Both the position numbers and the translations under genes were made by a program. From positions 1 to 59,530 of the IMG/VR virus record IMGVR_UViG_3300017739_000010: a stretch of 59,530 nt of DNA. One strand, written 5' to 3'. Under the pieces are notes generated by a model. The model did not search any database and was not told the DNA's origin. It worked only from the letters and a program-made list of their open reading frames with translations. The stretch comes from a virus. This document shows, piece after piece, positions 37-59,530 of this stretch; the stretch's first letter is position 1; the number at the start of each line of letters is the position of its first letter.

Positions 37-432
37 ATGAAAAAAATTTTACTATTTGAAGAGTTTATTAACGAGAATAAACAAGCAGAAAAAGTAATAA
101 AAAAAGCCCTTCCAGGATATGCATGGGAACATTATGGTTCTCTTGATTCTGATGAAATAGAGGCAGATGGTTTTGCTGGAGCTGAAACTTTTGGAGTAGC
201 CCTAGATGAACTTGATGGTATGGAATTAATGGTACAAATCTATTCAGCAGACGGATTGAGACATACTCATTTTGGTTTTAACTTTGATGGAATGCCAGTA
301 TCTACTTCATTACACTCAAGCGCTGAAAGAAGAAGTATTGATACTACTGGATTGGATTCTCCAATAGACATTAAAAAACTAAATTCAAGTGTATTAGACT
401 CTGTAATATCAGATATTAAAGATACTCTTTAA
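37..432 (+). CDS. Small protein with capsid-targeting-like N-terminus
   Basis: A 131-residue protein of unrecognised family. Its first 13 residues (MKKILLFEEFINE) have an aromatic/acidic core F-E-E-F followed by I-N-E. This resembles the capsid-targeting sequence of T4 internal proteins (MKTYQEFIAEA type), in which the head protease gp21 cuts after I/L-x-E. Similar starts occur on genes at 44.5, 50.8, 52.8, 55.9 and 56.4 kb. The remainder is acidic, soluble-looking and has no membrane segment or catalytic motif I can name. The A-rich leader contains no Shine-Dalgarno. I infer a protein packaged in the capsid and trimmed during maturation; the body's role is unknown. Confidence 0.75.
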   Translation: MKKILLFEEFINENKQAEKVIKKALPGYAWEHYGSLDSDEIEADGFAGAETFGVALDELDGMELMVQIYSADGLRHTHFGFNFDGMPVSTSLHSSAERRSIDTTGLDSPIDIKKLNSSVLDSVISDIKDTL

Positions 433-44523: not shown

Positions 44524-44901
44524 ATGAGAGATACTAAAACATTTAACGAATACTTAGTTGAGCAAAAGTTGACAGAAAACGATATGCAGCTTTTAAAAGA
44601 GTCTTTACAAGAAGAGTGGACTCCAGAATTAGAAGCTAAAGTAGACCATGCTCTAGAGCAATTCGTACAGCAATTTCAAAATGAAGACGGATCTTTTGAT
44701 TTGGATAGATTAGAAGAAGGTATTGTCAATGAAGGACTTTTAGGTTCTATTATCGGTGGTTTAACTGGTTTCGCGCTAGGAAAATCTGTTGGTAAAATGA
44801 TTGCTAAAGTTTTAGGTATTCAAAAAGGTATATTCTACGATTTATTAACCTCCCGTTTAGTTGGTGCTGCTCTAGGTGCTGCAATGGGTAAAAGATTCTA
44901 A
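44524..44901 (+). CDS. Tagged glycine-zipper protein, possibly packaged
   Basis: A 125-residue protein. The N-terminus (MRDTKTFNEYLVEQKLTE) resembles T4 capsid-targeting sequences and contains L-V-E (11-13) and L-T-E (16-18) cleavage-type sites. A charged helix follows. After V-N-E at 68-70 comes a hydrophobic glycine zipper, GLLGSIIGGLTGFALGKSVGK, and a second at GAALGAAMG. Glycine zippers pack in membranes, so after trimming the C-terminal half could insert into a membrane. A packaged, ejected membrane-active peptide is one hypothesis; a holin-like function is another. Confidence 0.6.
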   Translation: MRDTKTFNEYLVEQKLTENDMQLLKESLQEEWTPELEAKVDHALEQFVQQFQNEDGSFDLDRLEEGIVNEGLLGSIIGGLTGFALGKSVGKMIAKVLGIQKGIFYDLLTSRLVGAALGAAMGKRF

Positions 44902-50774: not shown

Positions 50775-52778
50775 ATGGGTTCATTAAAATTACAATCTTT
50801 TGAAGAGTTTGCTAATGCTAGCGTTAAAGCTGCAAAGGTAAAACTTGAAGAAGAACAATCAGCTGCAAGAAATGAAGCAGCATATAAATTCAAATCATTA
50901 TTAGCCGAATTCGGTGTAACTTCTATAAAAGACCTAAACGAAGAAGACAGAAATTCTTTCTACAGAAAATTAGGTGCTTCAGAGATTAGCGAGTCAATTG
51001 CTATTATTGAAGAAGGTACAAGATCTCAAATCGGTATTATTAACAAGAGAGGAAAAATAGAGTCAGTGTATATGCACTACGATGGTTATCCAGACAACAT
51101 GTTACCAACAATTAAGAAAGGTTACATGAATTCTGGAACAGTTAAGTTCTTACTTAAGAAAGGTGGTGGTTCTGGTTTAGAAGTAGATCCTAGTAAGATT
51201 AATTTTTACGGAGATAAAACTACAATGAAAGGCGACATCAAAGATATTGACAAATATTTATATGATGCTGCAGATAAAGCAGGCGCAGAATATGTCTACC
51301 TATACGACGAGAAGTCTAAAAAGTGGATGATGGCAGATACTTATGACATGCCAAGAGAATTAAAGCCAGCTTTCGAACATCTTATTATTAACGAAAAATT
51401 CGTACCATCTAAAGGTAATCTAAGAGATGCTAAAAAGGTTGCTAAAACTTTAGAGGGTATTATGATTGAAGGTTCAGCTCTAACTGGAGATGAAACTACA
51501 CATTTAGGTGCAATCAAGTATTTACTTATGAATGCGCTAGAAGACGCTAACTTCCATTCTTACATTGAACCCGTGGGAAAATCGTTAGGCGGCAAGATTA
51601 GAACAGTCATGATTAAAGTAGATAATCTAGGAGGTATGGAACTTCCAGTAGGTGCTAAGACAATCAAAAGATTCTTAGATGATAACTATGTAAAATTATC
51701 TAGCGCAGCTGGATGGTCAGGCATTGGTATCGTTGAGGGTATTGCACTTTATTTAGATGGATGGGGATTAAGCAAACACGCTCAGAAAATCGTAGATGCT
51801 TTCAACTTAATTTACCAAAACGAAGCAGTAGTTACTGAGGGTAACGCATTCTTTGCAGCAAGATCTAAAGCAATGGAAGAAGGTGCTGAAGAATTTGAAT
51901 TCAACGGTAAGAAATTTCCAGTAACAGAAGGCATGAACGACAAGGGAGAAGCAGACATCGATTTTGATGGTGGTGCTAAAGACCTAAAAATGATTAAGAA
52001 GAAATTCAAGGTTGATGCAGAAGAGTATAATCCAGGTATGGTAATGTTAAAAGGTAAGAAAAAAGATATTTTGGCTTATTTACGTTCTGATTTCTATGGA
52101 ATGGATGAGGATGATATTGAAGAATTATACCCTGATTTATATGAAGACTCAGAAATTGAAGTCGAAATGAAAGCAGTCGTATCTGAAGGAGATATTGCTA
52201 AAGTTTCTAAGAAAGAAATTATGTTCCACTTAGATGCTTTTCAAAAAGGAGACATTGAAGCTGAAGATTTAAGACAAGCTATGGAAGAAATTCTAGGAGA
52301 AGGAAATGCATTCGGTGCTGCAAGAGCAGAGGCTATCGCTAAAGGTGATGATAAATTCAAGGTTGGCGATGAAGAATATGATGTAGAAGGTGTAGACGCA
52401 GATGATAAAGAGAACGCAGAAGAATATGCCGAAGAAGAAGGTATTGAAGTTAAAGAGGAAGAAACTACTAACGAAGAGGAAGTAGAAGAAACTGAAGAAG
52501 TTGCTGAAGAAACTACTAACGAAGAGGAAGTAGAAGAAACTGAAGAAGTTGCTGAAGAAGAAGCAAATGAAGAGGAAGAAGTTGCTGAAGAAGTAACTAA
52601 CGAGGCTGAAGTAAAATCAGACGAAGACTTTAAAGAATATGCTTTCGCAGTTTTAGGAAAAGCTTTCGGTGATAAATTCGACGAAGAAAAAGCTCAAGAA
52701 GTAGTAGACGGTTTATTAGACAAACACGGCGATGACTATGGTGCAGCAGTTGGCGCATTACAATCATCACTAGGATAA
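50775..52778 (+). CDS. Large tagged protein with EGNAF repeats and acidic tail, possible capsid core protein
   Basis: A 667-residue protein. The start LQSFEEF and L-E-E (24-26) fits the capsid-targeting pattern. After a globular N-terminal half, two repeats with core EGNAFxAARxxAxxxGxxxFxxxGxxxxV begin near residues 354 and 508; each begins directly after a V-T-E or L-G-E, as if placed after a cleavage site. Such EGNAF units are frequent in marine phage proteins. Residues about 555-620 are almost only Glu, Thr, Val and Ala from a tandem repeat. The end (DFKEYAFAVLGKAFGDKFDE...YGAAVGALQSSLG) is helical. I infer a prohead core or internal protein. Confidence 0.6.
   Translation: MGSLKLQSFEEFANASVKAAKVKLEEEQSAARNEAAYKFKSLLAEFGVTSIKDLNEEDRNSFYRKLGASEISESIAIIEEGTRSQIGIINKRGKIESVYMHYDGYPDNMLPTIKKGYMNSGTVKFLLKKGGGSGLEVDPSKINFYGDKTTMKGDIKDIDKYLYDAADKAGAEYVYLYDEKSKKWMMADTYDMPRELKPAFEHLIINEKFVPSKGNLRDAKKVAKTLEGIMIEGSALTGDETTHLGAIKYLLMNALEDANFHSYIEPVGKSLGGKIRTVMIKVDNLGGMELPVGAKTIKRFLDDNYVKLSSAAGWSGIGIVEGIALYLDGWGLSKHAQKIVDAFNLIYQNEAVVTEGNAFFAARSKAMEEGAEEFEFNGKKFPVTEGMNDKGEADIDFDGGAKDLKMIKKKFKVDAEEYNPGMVMLKGKKKDILAYLRSDFYGMDEDDIEELYPDLYEDSEIEVEMKAVVSEGDIAKVSKKEIMFHLDAFQKGDIEAEDLRQAMEEILGEGNAFGAARAEAIAKGDDKFKVGDEEYDVEGVDADDKENAEEYAEEEGIEVKEEETTNEEEVEETEEVAEETTNEEEVEETEEVAEEEANEEEEVAEEVTNEAEVKSDEDFKEYAFAVLGKAFGDKFDEEKAQEVVDGLLDKHGDDYGAAVGALQSSLG
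52461..52556 (+). repeat. 48-bp tandem coding repeat
   Basis: Two 48-base units (52461-52508 and 52509-52556) with a degraded third copy, encoding the 16-residue acidic unit ETTNEEEVEETEEVAE. Copy number may vary by slippage. Confidence 0.85.
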
Positions 52779-52797
52779 AAACAGTTTAAAACTTCTC

Positions 52798-54069
52798 ATG
52801 AAGATATACTATAAATTTACAGATTTCATAAATGAAGAACTCCAGGTGGATAACTTGGAGAGCTTCGTATTTGAGGGTGGGGCTGCAGGACACATGATGC
52901 ACCCATTCGATGACAACTCACTTACATTTGCTGACTTTAAGAGAATTGTAAATTCTGCTCTACAGGGAGGTCTTGATTTTGAAGAGGCTCCAACAGAAAA
53001 GACAGATGGTCAGAATGTATTTGCTACTGTAAAGGATGGTAAAGCTATGTTTGCTAGAAATAAGGGACAATTAGCTAATCCACTCGACTTAAATGGTATC
53101 ATTAAGATGTTCACTGGCCACGCTTCTAAGCTGGTTGAAGAAACATTCATCTTTGCTGCTAAAGATCTAGCAGAGGCGCTCCCAAAGCTCAAGGACCAAT
53201 CTGTATTCCAAGACGGTAAGTCTTTTATCAATATGGAGTTAATTTACTCTAAAAACCCTAATGTAATTTATTATGACAGAGATGTTATTCAATTCCACGG
53301 TATGAAAGTTACTGATGGTGAGGGTAATATCATAGGTGAAGAGAATATCGCAGCAGAAATAGTAAAAGCACTTAGAGGGTTAAAAGCTGATATTGGTAAA
53401 ACATTTACAATAATTCCCCCTCAAATTTTAAAGTTAGCAAAAGACATTAACTTCGATGAGAGAGTCGGCTATTACGAAAAGGCGATAAATAAACTAAGAG
53501 ATACTTATGGTTTATCAGATCAAGATGAAGTCAAAATGTATCACGAGGCTTGGTGGAGAAATCAAATCGAAGAGAACTTTGCAGATTTAGACCCAGCATT
53601 AAAAGAAGGTCTTTTATTAAGATGGGCATATTTAGACAAGAAGACTCTAAATATGAGAGATTTAAAGAAAGCAGTTACTCCAGAACAAGCAAAGGCTGTT
53701 AAAGATTTTGATGGTCAAAGAAACAAGAAGTATAAAGAAAACATTTTACCCTTCGAGAATTTATTTTTAGAGTTAGGCTCGGATGTTTTAAAGAATGTTT
53801 CTAATTTTGTTGCTGCTAACCCAGAAGCTGAGAAAGCTAGATTACATAAGCAAATCAGAACTGAAGCAGACAAAGTTAAAAAGAATGGAGATCTAAAACA
53901 GATTGACAAAGTAGAAAAAGAATTAAAAAGACTAGAAGGTATCGGCGGAATCGAATCAATCATTCCAACAGAAGGTTTAGTCTTTAAGTACAACGGTAAA
54001 ACGTTTAAACTAACAGGTACTTTTGCTGCAATTAATCAGCTAATGGGTATCATAAAATACGGTAGATAA
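52798..54069 (+). CDS. Tagged covalent nucleotidyltransferase-like protein
   Basis: A 423-residue protein. The start MKIYYKFTDFINEE has the capsid-targeting-like core and I-N-E (11-13). E67-K68-T-D70-G71 matches motif I (KxDG) of the DNA/RNA ligase and capping-enzyme superfamily, where the lysine receives AMP or GMP. Residues 86-90 (ARNKG), MELIY near 148, E392-G-L-V-F-K-Y and F-K404-L resemble motifs Ia/III, IIIa, IV and V of the same fold. The enzyme should therefore form a lysine-nucleotide intermediate; substrate unknown. It ends one base into the next gene, a second KxDG protein. The family is seen in T4-like marine phages without function. Confidence 0.68.
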   Translation: MKIYYKFTDFINEELQVDNLESFVFEGGAAGHMMHPFDDNSLTFADFKRIVNSALQGGLDFEEAPTEKTDGQNVFATVKDGKAMFARNKGQLANPLDLNGIIKMFTGHASKLVEETFIFAAKDLAEALPKLKDQSVFQDGKSFINMELIYSKNPNVIYYDRDVIQFHGMKVTDGEGNIIGEENIAAEIVKALRGLKADIGKTFTIIPPQILKLAKDINFDERVGYYEKAINKLRDTYGLSDQDEVKMYHEAWWRNQIEENFADLDPALKEGLLLRWAYLDKKTLNMRDLKKAVTPEQAKAVKDFDGQRNKKYKENILPFENLFLELGSDVLKNVSNFVAANPEAEKARLHKQIRTEADKVKKNGDLKQIDKVEKELKRLEGIGGIESIIPTEGLVFKYNGKTFKLTGTFAAINQLMGIIKYGR

Positions 54070-55928
54070 TGGCACTACAAAACTTAAAAACATATTTCGA
54101 AGGTAGCAACTCAAATGAGTTCATGGATTTACTTAGCAATAAATGTATTGTTACTGAGAAAATTGATGGTTCTTCTTTTCATGTGAAAAGAAATAAGTCA
54201 GACTTCTCTTACTACAAATCTGGTCAGAAAACAGAGATGAACGCTGTAGACAGAACAATTGTAAGATATTATGAGAATGCAATTAGACATTTTAAAACAG
54301 TATCTGAGGAATCTAAGTTAGATATGCCTTTTGATTGGAAATTTGGTTTTGAGTATTTAGGTGACAATAAGACTATTGATATTGAATATGATGTTTTACC
54401 CAAGTCTAATTTGGTTTTAACACATATACAAGTTCTTCAGCCATCTAATCCTAACAAAGTTAGAAAAGTAATTAGAGACACTAAGATTTTAAATAAATGG
54501 GCAGACAAATTAGAGGTTAATAGACCCCCAGTTTTATTTGAAGGTCTTTTACATTCAGGTCAAAAATCTTCTTTAATTGATGTTTTAGAAACTGGTGTAA
54601 ACGAATTTGAAGACAGATATGAAAATCCAGACAAACCATCTTTTACAAGAGTTTTATACGGCATTTTCAATGAGAATAAAAAGCAGTCTGCTTTAATGAA
54701 TGATTTATCAAAAGATGTTTCAGGATTTATTATTAACTTTCACGATGGCAGTAGCGTTAAGACTTTTATTTTAGAGAAGTTTAACAAAAAACCTAGACTA
54801 GAAAGAAAACCATCTGACATGTATCAGATTTCTATCTTAGATATTGTAGAACATTTCATGCAATTAGACATAAGCAATATCGGATTGGAAGAAGAATCTT
54901 CTGACAAAAGATATTTAGAGTTAATGTCAGAGATGTTTAATGATTATATTGGTAAAAATGCAACAAAATATATTGGAGCTAAATTTGACTCCGCTGACTT
55001 TGCAGAATCTCCAATGTTTGAGTTAAACCATAAATTTTTACAAAACGAGAAAACATTAACTTTAGTACAAGATAAGATTTTAGCAGAATTGTTTAAAATA
55101 ACATTAGGCTCTTTTAGAAAGAAGAGAAGCAAAGAGACTGATATTATCAACGGAGACATGCTACAAACATTAAACCAAGTTGTTGAAAAAATTGAAGCTA
55201 GAGTTTTAGCAAAAGTAGAAGAAAACGGAATTATGAATTTTAAACAATATCTAGTAAACCAGAAGATTGACTCTGAAGTAAAGCCGGTAATGGAAGCTTT
55301 AGATGTACAATATCCAGAACAAGGTAAGAAATTAGTAAATATGTTTGTTGGTAGATTCCAACCATTTACACTAGGACATCAAAAAGTTATCGAGACAATT
55401 TACAAACAAAATGGCTACCCTGTTGTTATCTTTTTAATTAAAGCTAAAAAGAAAAAAGCAGAAGATGCATTCAAGAGACCTTATGATGAAGCTACGCAAT
55501 TAGGTATGTTAAATAGACTAAAGGACAAATTGCCAATCGAAGACGTTAAAGTTCTACCTACAGCAGCTATTGATAAAATGTTTAATGCATTAAGACCTAA
55601 GTACGAACCAGTATTATGGGGAACAGGAACTGACAGAATGAAAGTATATGGTTATCAAGTAAATAACGACAAATATAGAGAAGCTCTAGGTGTTAGAGAT
55701 GATTTCGGTTTATTTGAGATTCCAAGAACTGGTAAAAACATTTCAGCTACTCAAGTTAGAAACGCAATGCTTGATGGTGATGATAAACTATTTAAAAAAC
55801 TAACTCCAAGAGGATTACACAACATGTTCGATGAGTTAAAACAAAAATTACAAGACTCGATGGGAGTAATGGCAGAATCTACAGAAGTAGAGTTCTTAAC
55901 CTTCGATGATTTTTTAAAGAATATATAA
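54069..55928 (+). CDS. Fusion: covalent nucleotidyltransferase-like domain plus NMN-adenylyltransferase-like domain
   Basis: A 619-residue two-domain protein. N-terminal part: E30-K31-I-D33-G34 is KxDG motif I, followed by FGFEYLGDN and GFIINFHDGSSVKTFILEK, resembling motifs III and IV/V. C-terminal part: G428-R-F-Q-P-F-T-L-G-H437 is a nucleotidylyltransferase (T/H)xGH motif, and I558-S-A-T-Q-V-R564 is the matching ISxTxxR motif, as in NadM/NadR NMN adenylyltransferases. The domain would transfer AMP from ATP to NMN or a related phosphate. The last residues VEFLTFDDFLKNI repeat the tag core without an [ILV]-x-E site. It is coupled to the upstream ligase-like gene by one base. Confidence 0.8.
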   Translation: MALQNLKTYFEGSNSNEFMDLLSNKCIVTEKIDGSSFHVKRNKSDFSYYKSGQKTEMNAVDRTIVRYYENAIRHFKTVSEESKLDMPFDWKFGFEYLGDNKTIDIEYDVLPKSNLVLTHIQVLQPSNPNKVRKVIRDTKILNKWADKLEVNRPPVLFEGLLHSGQKSSLIDVLETGVNEFEDRYENPDKPSFTRVLYGIFNENKKQSALMNDLSKDVSGFIINFHDGSSVKTFILEKFNKKPRLERKPSDMYQISILDIVEHFMQLDISNIGLEEESSDKRYLELMSEMFNDYIGKNATKYIGAKFDSADFAESPMFELNHKFLQNEKTLTLVQDKILAELFKITLGSFRKKRSKETDIINGDMLQTLNQVVEKIEARVLAKVEENGIMNFKQYLVNQKIDSEVKPVMEALDVQYPEQGKKLVNMFVGRFQPFTLGHQKVIETIYKQNGYPVVIFLIKAKKKKAEDAFKRPYDEATQLGMLNRLKDKLPIEDVKVLPTAAIDKMFNALRPKYEPVLWGTGTDRMKVYGYQVNNDKYREALGVRDDFGLFEIPRTGKNISATQVRNAMLDGDDKLFKKLTPRGLHNMFDELKQKLQDSMGVMAESTEVEFLTFDDFLKNI

Positions 55929-55948
55929 ACAAAATATAGCATAATAAT

Positions 55949-56353
55949 ATGAAGAAAGTCCTATCATTCGAAGATTTCAAAAGCTCAGTAAATGAGTCAA
56001 TACAATTCGGCTCATATCACTTTAGTGACAGAACATCATTCGGCGAACATAGTGATGATTTACCTGAAAAAGGTGAAAGTAAATTTTTAGTGATGTCACA
56101 TACTGAAGTAGAGTTTGATGGTAGAAGATACAGACTAGATGGTCAACATACTAGTTTTGGTCAAGGAAGTAAAAGATATATTATTGGTATTTTCGAAGAC
56201 GAAGCTTCTGCTACAGAAGCGTATAAACAAGCTATGAAAAAACCAGAAGGTGCATACGTTTCTTTCTCAATGGGAACATTAACTGCAAAATCTAAATTTA
56301 CATTTAGTTACATTGAAAAAGAGGGACGCCTAGCAAAAATTAAAATAAGATAA
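55949..56353 (+). CDS. Small tagged protein, unknown
   Basis: A 134-residue protein. The start MKKVLSFEDFKSSVNES has the tag core F-E-D-F and V-N-E at 14-16. The rest is beta-rich (SKFLVMSHTEVEFDGRRYRLDG, KRYIIGIFEDEASATEAYKQA) and reads like a compact single-domain protein. ATATATAA at 55921-55928, overlapping the upstream stop, could be a weaker late-promoter variant. It is followed 2 bases later by a long tagged protein. Confidence 0.62.
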   Translation: MKKVLSFEDFKSSVNESIQFGSYHFSDRTSFGEHSDDLPEKGESKFLVMSHTEVEFDGRRYRLDGQHTSFGQGSKRYIIGIFEDEASATEAYKQAMKKPEGAYVSFSMGTLTAKSKFTFSYIEKEGRLAKIKIR

Positions 56354-56355
56354 TC

Positions 56356-58437
56356 ATGGCATCATTCGAAGACTTTTTATCAGAAGGTAAGAAATTACAA
56401 ATCAAAAGAAAATATACAGAGAACCACCCTGCTAAAACTGTAGGTAAAACTGCCAATGTAAGAAACGCAGTTCTACAAGCTATTAAGGATGGTGTGGTAA
56501 CAAGAGAAGAGTTCAACAAAATTCTTTCTGAGTTATCTGCTGATTCTAGACAATGGTCTTCTAGAAATAGAAAGTATTTCAATATCTCTGAAGAAGGTAT
56601 TAAACTTTCAAAGTGGGGTATGAGAATTCTAAACGAACTAGACTCTGAAGAAGAGGAAATGATTCTATCTGATGAAATTAGTGAGAATGTAAAAGTCTTA
56701 AAAGACAAATGGCCTTATGTTGAGTTTAAACTCAAAGGCAAAAAGCATAAAGTAGACTTTGAGTATGAAGATGATATTGATGACCACGGTAACGAAGGTA
56801 AAGATCAATACTATAGAGGAGAAGATGAAGACGGTAATTTCTTTGAAGTAGATGTTTATTCTGACTATAGAGGTGAAGTGCAAGATGTATTATATGATAC
56901 TCTAGTACAAGTTGACGAATCAACAGTTAATGAAAAGAAACTTAAATTTAAAGTAGGTGATTTCATTAAAAAGAAGAAAAAGTATGGCGGTGGAAACTTT
57001 GAGTATGAAATTAAATCTATTAAGCCAAAATTTAATGCGGTTGAACTTTATTTAGACGTTACTAGTAACAGCCAAATGCAAACATTTCAACATATTGAAA
57101 AAGAATGGGAACTTGCAGAAGCTGTAGTTAATGAAAAAGACGACGCTGGTGACCACTTAGATAATTTAGAATCTATTGTAGGTAAAGCCAGAGATTTCTT
57201 TGCAATAGGTAAAGAATTAGATAAAGGTGGCTACAAGAAGAAATACTTCTATAGTGACACGATGGCTCCATCATATACAATTGAAGTAGATGGTTTTAGA
57301 TTTGCTATTATCAATAAAAGATATGTTGACAAAGGCGATAGAGAAGTTGGCGACATCGCAATCGGATTATTAGAAAATATGAACACAAATATGAAAAACG
57401 AAATAAACTTATTCGAATCATTCGGAGACTTCTTAAGCTCCAATGGTATTCTTAACGAAGCAATTAACTCTGCTATTTTAAGATCAGTTCTATCTAACGG
57501 TAGAGAGGGTAAACAAGGTAAGAAGAATCTTTCTATGTTAGCTAAAGGTTTTTATGGACTATCTAAAGTAGCTCTTGATAAAATTGAAGATGAAGATTTT
57601 ATTATTAGTAATGATGTAAGTAAAATCTTTAAGAACTATGGTGGTAATAGCCACGTACTTTTCTTTATCTCAGACAATGAGAAAGAAAACCCATACTATG
57701 ATACAAAGAACTCATCTTGGAATGACTATAAGATAGTTCCAGGTGGAGGTATTGTATTAGCAGCTATGTCTGGTGATAGACAATTCTATGCTAACGAGTG
57801 GTCAAGATGGTCAGGCGGTAGAGTTTGGTCTAAGAATAAAAAAGGTGATGAAGGACAAATAGGTATTAACCACAAATACAGAGGTTGGGGTGCATCAGGT
57901 CTTAACAACGGTAAGAGAATCGCAGAGATGTCCGATAGAGTTATTGTTATTAACTTAGAATTAATCAGACAAAAGTATTCTACTGAAAATCTTAGAAATG
58001 CAAGAAAAGCCGCTAGAGCAGGTGCAACAGCATTCAAATCTGATAAAGATTTTAAAACAGCTAACTTAGACAGATACCATAAGATTTTAGCTGATAAAGC
58101 AGCGAGTCTACCACTAGATAAAATGGTAAAAGATGCTATCGAGTTACTAAGTAAACATCTTTCAGATGGCATATCAAGCGGTAGTATGACTAAATATGAT
58201 GAAATTAAAGTTGGTGAAGATCCTAAAGGTAGAGAAGTAAAAGCAAGAGATTGCTCAAACCATATTTCAAATATCTTAGATGACTACTCAAGATATGTTA
58301 GTTACATTAAACAAGGTGAAGAATCTGAAGCTAGATATGGTCAAAGAGAGTCTTACTACGAGAAAGAGTCTAAAAACTATGCTAAAAGAATAAAAGACAA
58401 AATAGCTAAAATCGAGAAGTTCGATTACGCTTGGTAA
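56356..58437 (+). CDS. Tagged multi-domain protein resembling a polyprotein
   Basis: A 693-residue protein. Start MASFEDFLSEG: tag core and L-S-E at 8-10. A small helical unit (about 15-95) follows, then an acidic beta unit (115-190), V-N-E (191-193), a basic beta domain of about 65 residues, V-N-E (258-260), another unit, then a second full tag INLFESFGDFLSSNGILNE (350-368) inside the protein, with L-N-E at its end, and a C-terminal domain of about 320 residues (basic helices at the end). Domains are thus separated by [LV]-x-E sites. I infer fusion of two packaged proteins, possibly cut by the head protease. Confidence 0.6.
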   Translation: MASFEDFLSEGKKLQIKRKYTENHPAKTVGKTANVRNAVLQAIKDGVVTREEFNKILSELSADSRQWSSRNRKYFNISEEGIKLSKWGMRILNELDSEEEEMILSDEISENVKVLKDKWPYVEFKLKGKKHKVDFEYEDDIDDHGNEGKDQYYRGEDEDGNFFEVDVYSDYRGEVQDVLYDTLVQVDESTVNEKKLKFKVGDFIKKKKKYGGGNFEYEIKSIKPKFNAVELYLDVTSNSQMQTFQHIEKEWELAEAVVNEKDDAGDHLDNLESIVGKARDFFAIGKELDKGGYKKKYFYSDTMAPSYTIEVDGFRFAIINKRYVDKGDREVGDIAIGLLENMNTNMKNEINLFESFGDFLSSNGILNEAINSAILRSVLSNGREGKQGKKNLSMLAKGFYGLSKVALDKIEDEDFIISNDVSKIFKNYGGNSHVLFFISDNEKENPYYDTKNSSWNDYKIVPGGGIVLAAMSGDRQFYANEWSRWSGGRVWSKNKKGDEGQIGINHKYRGWGASGLNNGKRIAEMSDRVIVINLELIRQKYSTENLRNARKAARAGATAFKSDKDFKTANLDRYHKILADKAASLPLDKMVKDAIELLSKHLSDGISSGSMTKYDEIKVGEDPKGREVKARDCSNHISNILDDYSRYVSYIKQGEESEARYGQRESYYEKESKNYAKRIKDKIAKIEKFDYAW

Positions 58438-58454
58438 AAATACTAATATAAAAA

Positions 58455-58661
58455 TTGGCATCCTGTAAGTTAAAAGAAAGTAGTAAAGAATATCAGAGAG
58501 ATCGTAATAACAAAATGACCAATAAATGGTCGTGGAAGCATTATACGGTTCACAACACTTCAACAGAAGAGTTACTAAAGGCTTACGAGAATTCCAATAT
58601 GAGTAGAAAGAGGAACATAATTAGAAAAGAATTAGAGAAAAGAAATGCCATCAGTAAGTAA
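58455..58661 (+). CDS. Small conserved-looking basic protein
   Basis: A 68-residue Lys/Arg/Ser-rich protein. From TTG 58455 it reads MASCKLKESSKEYQRDRNNKMTN, then KWSWKHYTVHNTSTEELLKAYEN and RKRNIIRKELEKR. I prefer TTG because the part before the first ATG (58515) is of the same character as the rest and lies 17 bases after the previous stop; starting at 58515 would give 48 residues. Basic and helical; nucleic-acid or capsid-interior binding is possible. It overlaps the next gene by 17 bases. Confidence 0.55.
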   Translation: MASCKLKESSKEYQRDRNNKMTNKWSWKHYTVHNTSTEELLKAYENSNMSRKRNIIRKELEKRNAISK

Positions 58662-59530
58662 ATCACAACAAAGATTAATGGGAGTTGCATACGCAGTTAA
58701 ATCTGGTAGTATGGAACTTAAAGATGTAGATGCAGAATACAGAGATAAAGTTGCATCGTTAGTAGATGGTATGACTAAGAAAGATCTAAAGAAATACGCT
58801 TCAACTAAACATGATAAACTACCAGAAACGGTAGATGAAAATTTTGAAGTAGGTATGGGTAGAATATCACCATCTTCTAATATTGGAGGAATGGGTCCTG
58901 TAGTTTTGCCTTCCGATGGTGTTGTAGGTTCCGGAGACGTACCTACAGTAGCAGATATTGACGCTGAAGACGAAGAAGAAAAGAAGAAGGATAAAACAAA
59001 AAAGAAATTAGAAATGGAGAACTTTAAATTATTTACACAGTTTGATAATTTCGTAAGCGAAGGTTTCGACCAACGCCCCGGACAATTAGTTAAAGACTTA
59101 CATTTTGAGATAGATCCTGAAAAAGCAGAAGCGATGAAAATCGAACTTGGCAGGAGACAAGGAGAGGTTACAACAAGAAAACAAATTGAAGGCGGCGATT
59201 ATGCTCTAAGAAGATTTAGAAAAGAGATTAGATATGGTGACGGTAGTTACTTGGGAGTATTTATGCCGGGTTCTTATGATGCCGCTACTTCTAAGTTAGG
59301 CGATGGTCCACATAAGAAAGCAGTTAAGAAAGTAAAATGGAATATGAAGAAGTATCAACAATGGGTTGATGATGTAGCTTCTAATGACGGTTGGAAACAT
59401 TCTTACGATATGGCACAAAATGCTAAAATGGAACCAGGTCTATTACAGTGGGCTAAGAAAGAATTTAGAGGTGAAGATCCACTACAAAGAATTCAATGGG
59501 ATATTGAAGCCTATGCAGAATCTGTAGTTA
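58645..59530 (+). CDS. DUF3008-like protein with internal tag (partial, runs off window)
   Basis: At least 295 residues, open at the window end. Residues 1-62 (MPSVSKSQQRLMGVAYAVKSG...LKKYASTKHDKLPETV) match the DUF3008 type (Pro-x-x-Ser-x-x-Gln-Gln-Arg-x-Met-Gly, ending STKHxxLPexV), a short domain frequent in phages. After a Gly/Pro-rich linker and a Lys/Glu stretch, residue 124 (ATG 59014) begins MENFKLFTQFDNFVSEG, another tag with V-S-E (137-139), followed by an unrecognised basic domain. So a tag lies in the middle, either as a fusion or with a second internal start at 59014. Confidence 0.7.
   Translation, partial: MPSVSKSQQRLMGVAYAVKSGSMELKDVDAEYRDKVASLVDGMTKKDLKKYASTKHDKLPETVDENFEVGMGRISPSSNIGGMGPVVLPSDGVVGSGDVPTVADIDAEDEEEKKKDKTKKKLEMENFKLFTQFDNFVSEGFDQRPGQLVKDLHFEIDPEKAEAMKIELGRRQGEVTTRKQIEGGDYALRRFRKEIRYGDGSYLGVFMPGSYDAATSKLGDGPHKKAVKKVKWNMKKYQQWVDDVASNDGWKHSYDMAQNAKMEPGLLQWAKKEFRGEDPLQRIQWDIEAYAESVV

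Follow-up and report, generated by a model that had tools for sequence, protein, structure and literature searches.

A putative portable capsid-targeting tag on enzymes and counter-defence family proteins of jumbo T4-like phages

It is established that the internal proteins (IPs) of phage T4, which share just a common leader, are injected and inhibit type IV restriction enzymes (PMC12373910, PMC9391042), with at least 10 IPs reported for the T-even phages (PMC12373910). Packaging of T4 IPIII needs its first ten residues only, with residues 4 and 7 (Y4, F7) counting for targeting and residues 8 and 10 for processing, and T4 Alt is processed at its C-terminus as well (PMC9026906). In phiKZ and SPN3US, ejection and inner-body proteins are likewise packaged and cut by the prohead protease after x-x-E, and include diverged paralogs with identical 15-residue N-termini (PMC5694885). 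Here we describe a 59.5-kb fragment of a marine T4-like phage from IMG/VR (record IMGVR_UViG_3300017739_000010, positions 1 to 59,530; hereafter the window, with 50 mechanically called open reading frames, ORFs), in which genes with unrelated bodies share a short aromatic/acidic tag. We consider it likely, with a probability of roughly 85%, that this tag serves as a portable signal for capsid targeting and acts like the capsid-targeting sequence (CTS) of the T4 IPs.

All six gene starts singled out in the initial annotation (37, 44524, 50775, 52798, 55949 and 56356) were found in place, each with its motif. F-x-[ED]-[FYW] occurs at six N-termini of the window, a number reached by none of 5000 shuffles, and the full motif, defined by T4 spacing (aromatic-x-x-aromatic-[ILVM]-x-E near the N-terminus), is present in 4 of the 50 ORFs, equalled by 1 of 5000 shuffles. 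The protein encoded at 52798 served as query to fetch 80 related contigs, and a profile search with the tags, proposed as a check alongside the first description, returned 92 N-terminally tagged ORFs in ten related contigs, whose bodies fall into 50 clusters, in keeping with the claim that the bodies behind the tag are unrelated. Motif starts in the ten contigs number 90 in residues 1–8 versus 0–17 in each later 8-residue bin. When aromatic cores were detected without requiring a cut site, position +1 was [ILV] in 60% of them and position +3 was E in 50%, where background rates are 21% and 7%; the corresponding figures for 941 internal aromatic cores were 22% and 9%. Four-residue cores are thus common, as would be expected if a short aromatic/acidic pattern had been chosen by eye, but such a chance origin is refuted by the shuffle and internal controls and by the conservation of the tags among orthologs, and its probability is close to nil. 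A DNA-level constraint (translation start context) or a recent duplication of gene starts would fit both the likeness right at the start codon and the adjacency of many tagged genes, but codon usage in the tags does not depart from that of the genome as a whole, with different synonymous codons in use, so that the constraint acts on protein rather than DNA, and the same tag is also found C-terminally and internally; this explanation is largely refuted and very improbable.

The window leaders have the same layout as the T4 IPIII leader MKTYQEFIAE, at positions 4, 7, 8 and 10. A profile made from 81 tags of the ten related contigs, with T4 sequences left out, was run against 410 control ORFs from T4, T7, SPO1, Mel-JY01 and LR756500 and ranked T4 IPII first (E 0.0014) and IPIII fourth (E 0.0038), with IPI matching weakly (E 0.46), so that the likeness to T4 targeting sequences first seen by eye holds up with a T4-free profile. 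T7 and SPO1 gave no matches with the tag profile, and the FEEF profile found nothing convincing in the PTm1, pT24 and Lak regions searched. The gp21-like protease sought outside the window was found as well: a Peptidase_S77 (gp21-type) protease and a gp23-type major capsid protein (MCP) occur in 14 of 20 related contigs, including the nearest, G018, which extends beyond the right end of the window and carries a 97% identical ortholog of the 52798 protein. The protease matches its Pfam family above cut-off and retains GELDHP and SSRA blocks, which align with GELNHP and SSRG of T4 gp21. In the N-terminal part of the MCP, K-L-Y-E around residue 43 is conserved in 9 of 9 contigs and is a candidate for the site of cleavage. 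Because the T4-free profile ranks T4 IPs so high and the relatives carry this protease and MCP, we argue that the tag works like the T4 CTS. Structural relatives of the window in named collections are jumbo T4-like phages, among them the uncultured 462-kb phage LR756500 (61% identity in the MCP N-terminal region and 65% in the protease domain), the Prevotella Lak megaphages, Tenacibaculum PTm1 and pT24, Sphingomonas PAU and Chryseobacterium MA9V.

In one ORF of 604–783 amino acids, at G018:35782-38133 and in orthologs from eight other contigs, the protease is joined to a coiled-coil, acidic tail of 400–600 residues, which is repetitive and scaffold-like. Within this tail, Y-x-x-[YH]-[ILV]-x-E (YSEYLAE, YTEYIAE) recurs in 4–8 copies in 9 of 9 contigs, the distance from copy to copy being mostly 14 or another multiple of 7, and shuffles gave means of 0.05–0.10 copies (about 0.08) and at most 2; the protease fusion ranks first in the proteome for this repeat motif in all nine. 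We infer that the tag imitates one scaffold repeat, such that cargo would join the core and be freed by this same protease. In this model the tag (aromatic-x-x-aromatic-[ILV]-x-E) would bind the prohead core while the head is being assembled, probably by mimicry of the Y-x-x-[YH]-[ILV]-A-E unit in the lineage's own protease-fused scaffold, after which the gp21-type protease would cut behind [ILV]-x-E, so that the tag is lost but the cargo stays inside the head, and the trimmed and packaged cargo would be injected together with the DNA. Some tagged proteins would then be core or assembly parts, and others enzymes and counter-defence proteins that enter the cell as infection begins. The scaffold-like genes of G021, a 287-kb phage whose gp21 is encoded separately, hold no repeats of G021's own leader, so that the scaffold-mimic idea is shown for the window's lineage only.

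Genes directly beside the protease and MCP are tagged, and a small, conserved tagged gene occupies a gp68-like position. These flanking genes, together with the degradation of T4 gp22, gp67 and gp68 by gp21 (PMC5694885), are what one would expect if the tag served assembly alone, bringing in core or scaffold components that are cut up at maturation rather than injected as effectors. We regard this as rather unlikely, since the cargo includes enzyme and counter-defence families without a scaffold role (ligase-like, Tad3, Acb1, kinase, GNAT), whose variable clusters are distant from the head genes. It is more improbable still that the leader has another role, such as membrane or compartment targeting, a degron or a regulatory N-terminus, and resembles the T4 CTS superficially: the motif is short and known here from sequence alone, but T4 spacing, cut-site residues, protease presence and scaffold repeats of the same pattern coincide, and homologous cargo in another phage has leaders ending [ILV]xE.

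The tagged genes of the window all lie on the + strand. The first (37..432, 131 amino acids, tag MKKILLFEEFINE at 37-75) has a body of no assigned family, with neither a PHROG nor a Pfam match, and the second (44524..44901, 125 amino acids, tag MRDTKTFNEYLVE at 44524-44562) has a glycine-zipper-like C-terminus and is kept in nearly all relatives, with leader MKTFxEYLxE. A multidomain protein of 667 amino acids (50775..52778) starts with MGSLKLQSFEEFANASVKAAKVKLEE; the core FEEF occupies residues 9-12 and the earliest [ILV]xE residues 24-26. Its residues ~370-520 hold a repeated module, GNAFxAARxxAxxxGxxxFxxxGxxxxV, with [ILV]xE-like sites flanking each copy, and these modules could be processed as a polyprotein. 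No phage record matched this protein by tblastn, and a 23-residue tag peptide, a very short or low-complexity query, found no match among phages. There follow an RNA-ligase-like nucleotidyltransferase with the motif EKTDGQN (52798..54069, 423 amino acids, tag MKIYYKFTDFINE at 52798-52836) and a 619-amino acid protein joining a ligase-like part (EKIDGS) to a cytidylyltransferase/NMNAT-like one (54069..55928), which has no N-terminal tag and ends in the C-terminal tag LTFDDFLKNI at 55896-55925. This C-terminal copy, overlooked at first, is kept in orthologs, nearly all of which have a C-terminal [LMQ]TFxxF element (37 of 42 by strict pattern, the others mostly reading QTFNxF). The 134-amino acid protein at 55949..56353 begins with MKKVLSFEDFKSSVNE (55949-55996), in which the cut site is shifted by 3 residues, and has a 92% identical ortholog in G018.

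Both internal copies reported initially were also found. The multidomain protein at 56356..58437 (693 amino acids) carries, besides its N-terminal tag MASFEDFLSE at 56356-56385, the tag LFESFGDFLSSNGILNE at 57409-57459 (residues 352-368), placed at a domain junction; a fold search with the predicted structure of its C-terminal domain gave no usable PDB match. The last ORF (58645..59529), a DUF3008 protein truncated by the window end, has MENFKLFTQFDNFVSE at 59014-59061 (residues 124-139), where shorter orthologs carry the C-terminal tag KTFEQFIFEKLN. As DUF3008 orthologs often end in this or a similar sequence, the internal copy is better read as a putative DUF3008 C-terminal tag with a further domain fused on. 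Parts of such proteins also occur under tags of their own: G001_62558, of 140 amino acids and N-terminally tagged, is homologous to residues 78-187 of the 50775 protein, and the N-terminally tagged G002_194239 matches the C-terminal part of the G018 and G009 orthologs of the 58645 protein.

Several observations weigh against a T4-like targeting signal. Counts across the relatives stem from non-independent samples, the window itself contains neither protease nor MCP, and the profile E-values for the T4 IPs are modest, at about 1e-3 in 410 ORFs. The [ILV]xE that had been described within a few residues of every core stands at exact T4 spacing in four of the six N-termini of the window and is displaced in the other two, 50775 and 55949. 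The E is often absent from C-terminal tags, and a candidate cut site upstream of them was not clearly enriched (28 of 37 versus a background of 54%; 1 of 10 for DUF3008).

Turning to the cargo, for which family names are Pfam assignments and not activities, the EKTDG motif in the body of the 52798 protein is invariant in 32 homologs. Its predicted model has a predicted local distance difference test (pLDDT) value of 87, and the top 21 Foldseek matches are RNA, tRNA or DNA ligases, led by T4 Rnl1 with probability 0.92 but weakly so (E > 0.001, template modelling score about 0.2); with neither a Pfam nor a PHROG match, we describe this predicted enzyme as RNA-ligase-like. In the 54069 protein a ligase-like KIDGS motif is joined to a cytidylyltransferase domain; this fusion adjoins the ligase-like 52798 gene, and related domains form one protein in Microcystis phage Mel-JY01 and in G021. 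In the 256-kb contig G002, 14 of 15 consecutive ORFs at 193.2–200.3 kb are tagged, including a zeta-toxin-like kinase and a GNAT protein. The tagged G002_199513 belongs to the Tad3 (anti-Thoeris) family (PF25185, E 8.2e-19), all 7 of the 7 Tad3 loci found being tagged, and the tagged G002_198662 is a marginal match to the Acb1 (anti-CBASS)/2H phosphoesterase family (PF23474, 28.3 bits against a cut-off of 27). Runs of consecutive small tagged genes, mostly without a Pfam match, lie at G002:193196-200277 and G003:174868-182703 and adjoin Tad3- and Acb1-like genes, and the unassigned members of these runs are candidates for new anti-defence proteins.

Leaders of other kinds are found on related cargo. 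The Acb1 family shows 53 distinct N-termini: those of close relatives bear the FEEF tag, many of the rest have other leaders, again with [ILV]xE just ahead of the body (MIKLKDLITE, MKLKTLLNSIKE, MIRLLDLIRE), and short forms have no leader. In G021 the leader M(I)KLKxLLxE begins eight ORFs versus 0 of 1271 internal Met positions, and six of these ORFs have homologs in FEEF contigs, which in five cases are FEEF-tagged (P = 3e-5; P = 2e-4 without Acb1, which prompted the pattern). The occurrence of the same cargo families under a different leader suggests lineage-specific tag dialects. Sphingomonas phage PAU (positions 94936-135424 of its record) has the leader MKTLxxLYE(A/S) on 14 of 62 ORFs and at 0 of 232 internal Met positions; the leader-bearing ORFs surround the portal, protease and capsid genes, and two are annotated 'internal capsid protein'. 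With the FEEF profile no protein of this stretch scored above about 2 bits. The PAU leader thus resembles the tag in recurring near head genes and ending in [IL]xE but differs from it in sequence, and is a predicted separate tag dialect in an isolated phage. In a further contig, the 322-kb G024, about 18 ORFs start with MK(I/L)(I/L)ITE(S/N), six of them consecutive (e.g., 313405-316657); with no homologs of these ORFs among FEEF-tagged cargo, this leader is possibly a third dialect or just a common first strand.

Set beside the known systems, the tagged proteins share with T4 IPI, IPII and IPIII a short N-terminal leader, aromatics at the targeting positions, an [IL]-x-E cut, unrelated bodies and gp21/gp23-type head genes. 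They differ in that tagged genes are far more numerous (26 in one 256-kb contig) and include larger enzymes, in that tags are also C-terminal and internal, and in that the cargo is related to anti-CBASS and anti-Thoeris proteins, that of T4 to anti-GmrSD. T4 Alt, a packaged, gp21-cut and injected enzyme, is a precedent for a C-terminal propeptide, whereas the C-terminal element here resembles the CTS itself, and no ADP-ribosyltransferase emerged from the cargo examined. The phiKZ and SPN3US proteins are alike in being packaged with a propeptide cut after x-x-E, packaging in the present case being predicted, but their propeptides mostly exceed 100 residues, and SPN3US uses an A-x-E cut motif. 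What is new in the present set is its scale and its lineage, the placing of tags at C-termini and internally, the protease–scaffold fusion with tag-like repeats, the tagged cargo of anti-CBASS and anti-Thoeris families and the switching of leaders; we found no paper describing these features or the LFEEF tag, within an incomplete coverage of the literature.

We lean, by a little, towards a modular packaging code, in which each jumbo T4-like lineage would have its own tag dialect, here copied from a scaffold repeat, proteins tagged at either terminus or at a domain junction would be pre-loaded in the virion, and cargo would swap labels between lineages. If so, entire suites of counter-defence proteins (anti-CBASS, anti-Thoeris, RNA repair, kinases and others) would act before phage gene expression. 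Since tagged clusters hold CBASS- and Thoeris-blocking families and T4 IPs block restriction, the unassigned tagged genes may be taken as ranked anti-defence candidates. The likeness of tag to scaffold repeat would provide a concrete model of CTS recognition, and a tag that can be read from sequence would predict which unassigned genes of large T4-like phages go to work as soon as infection begins.
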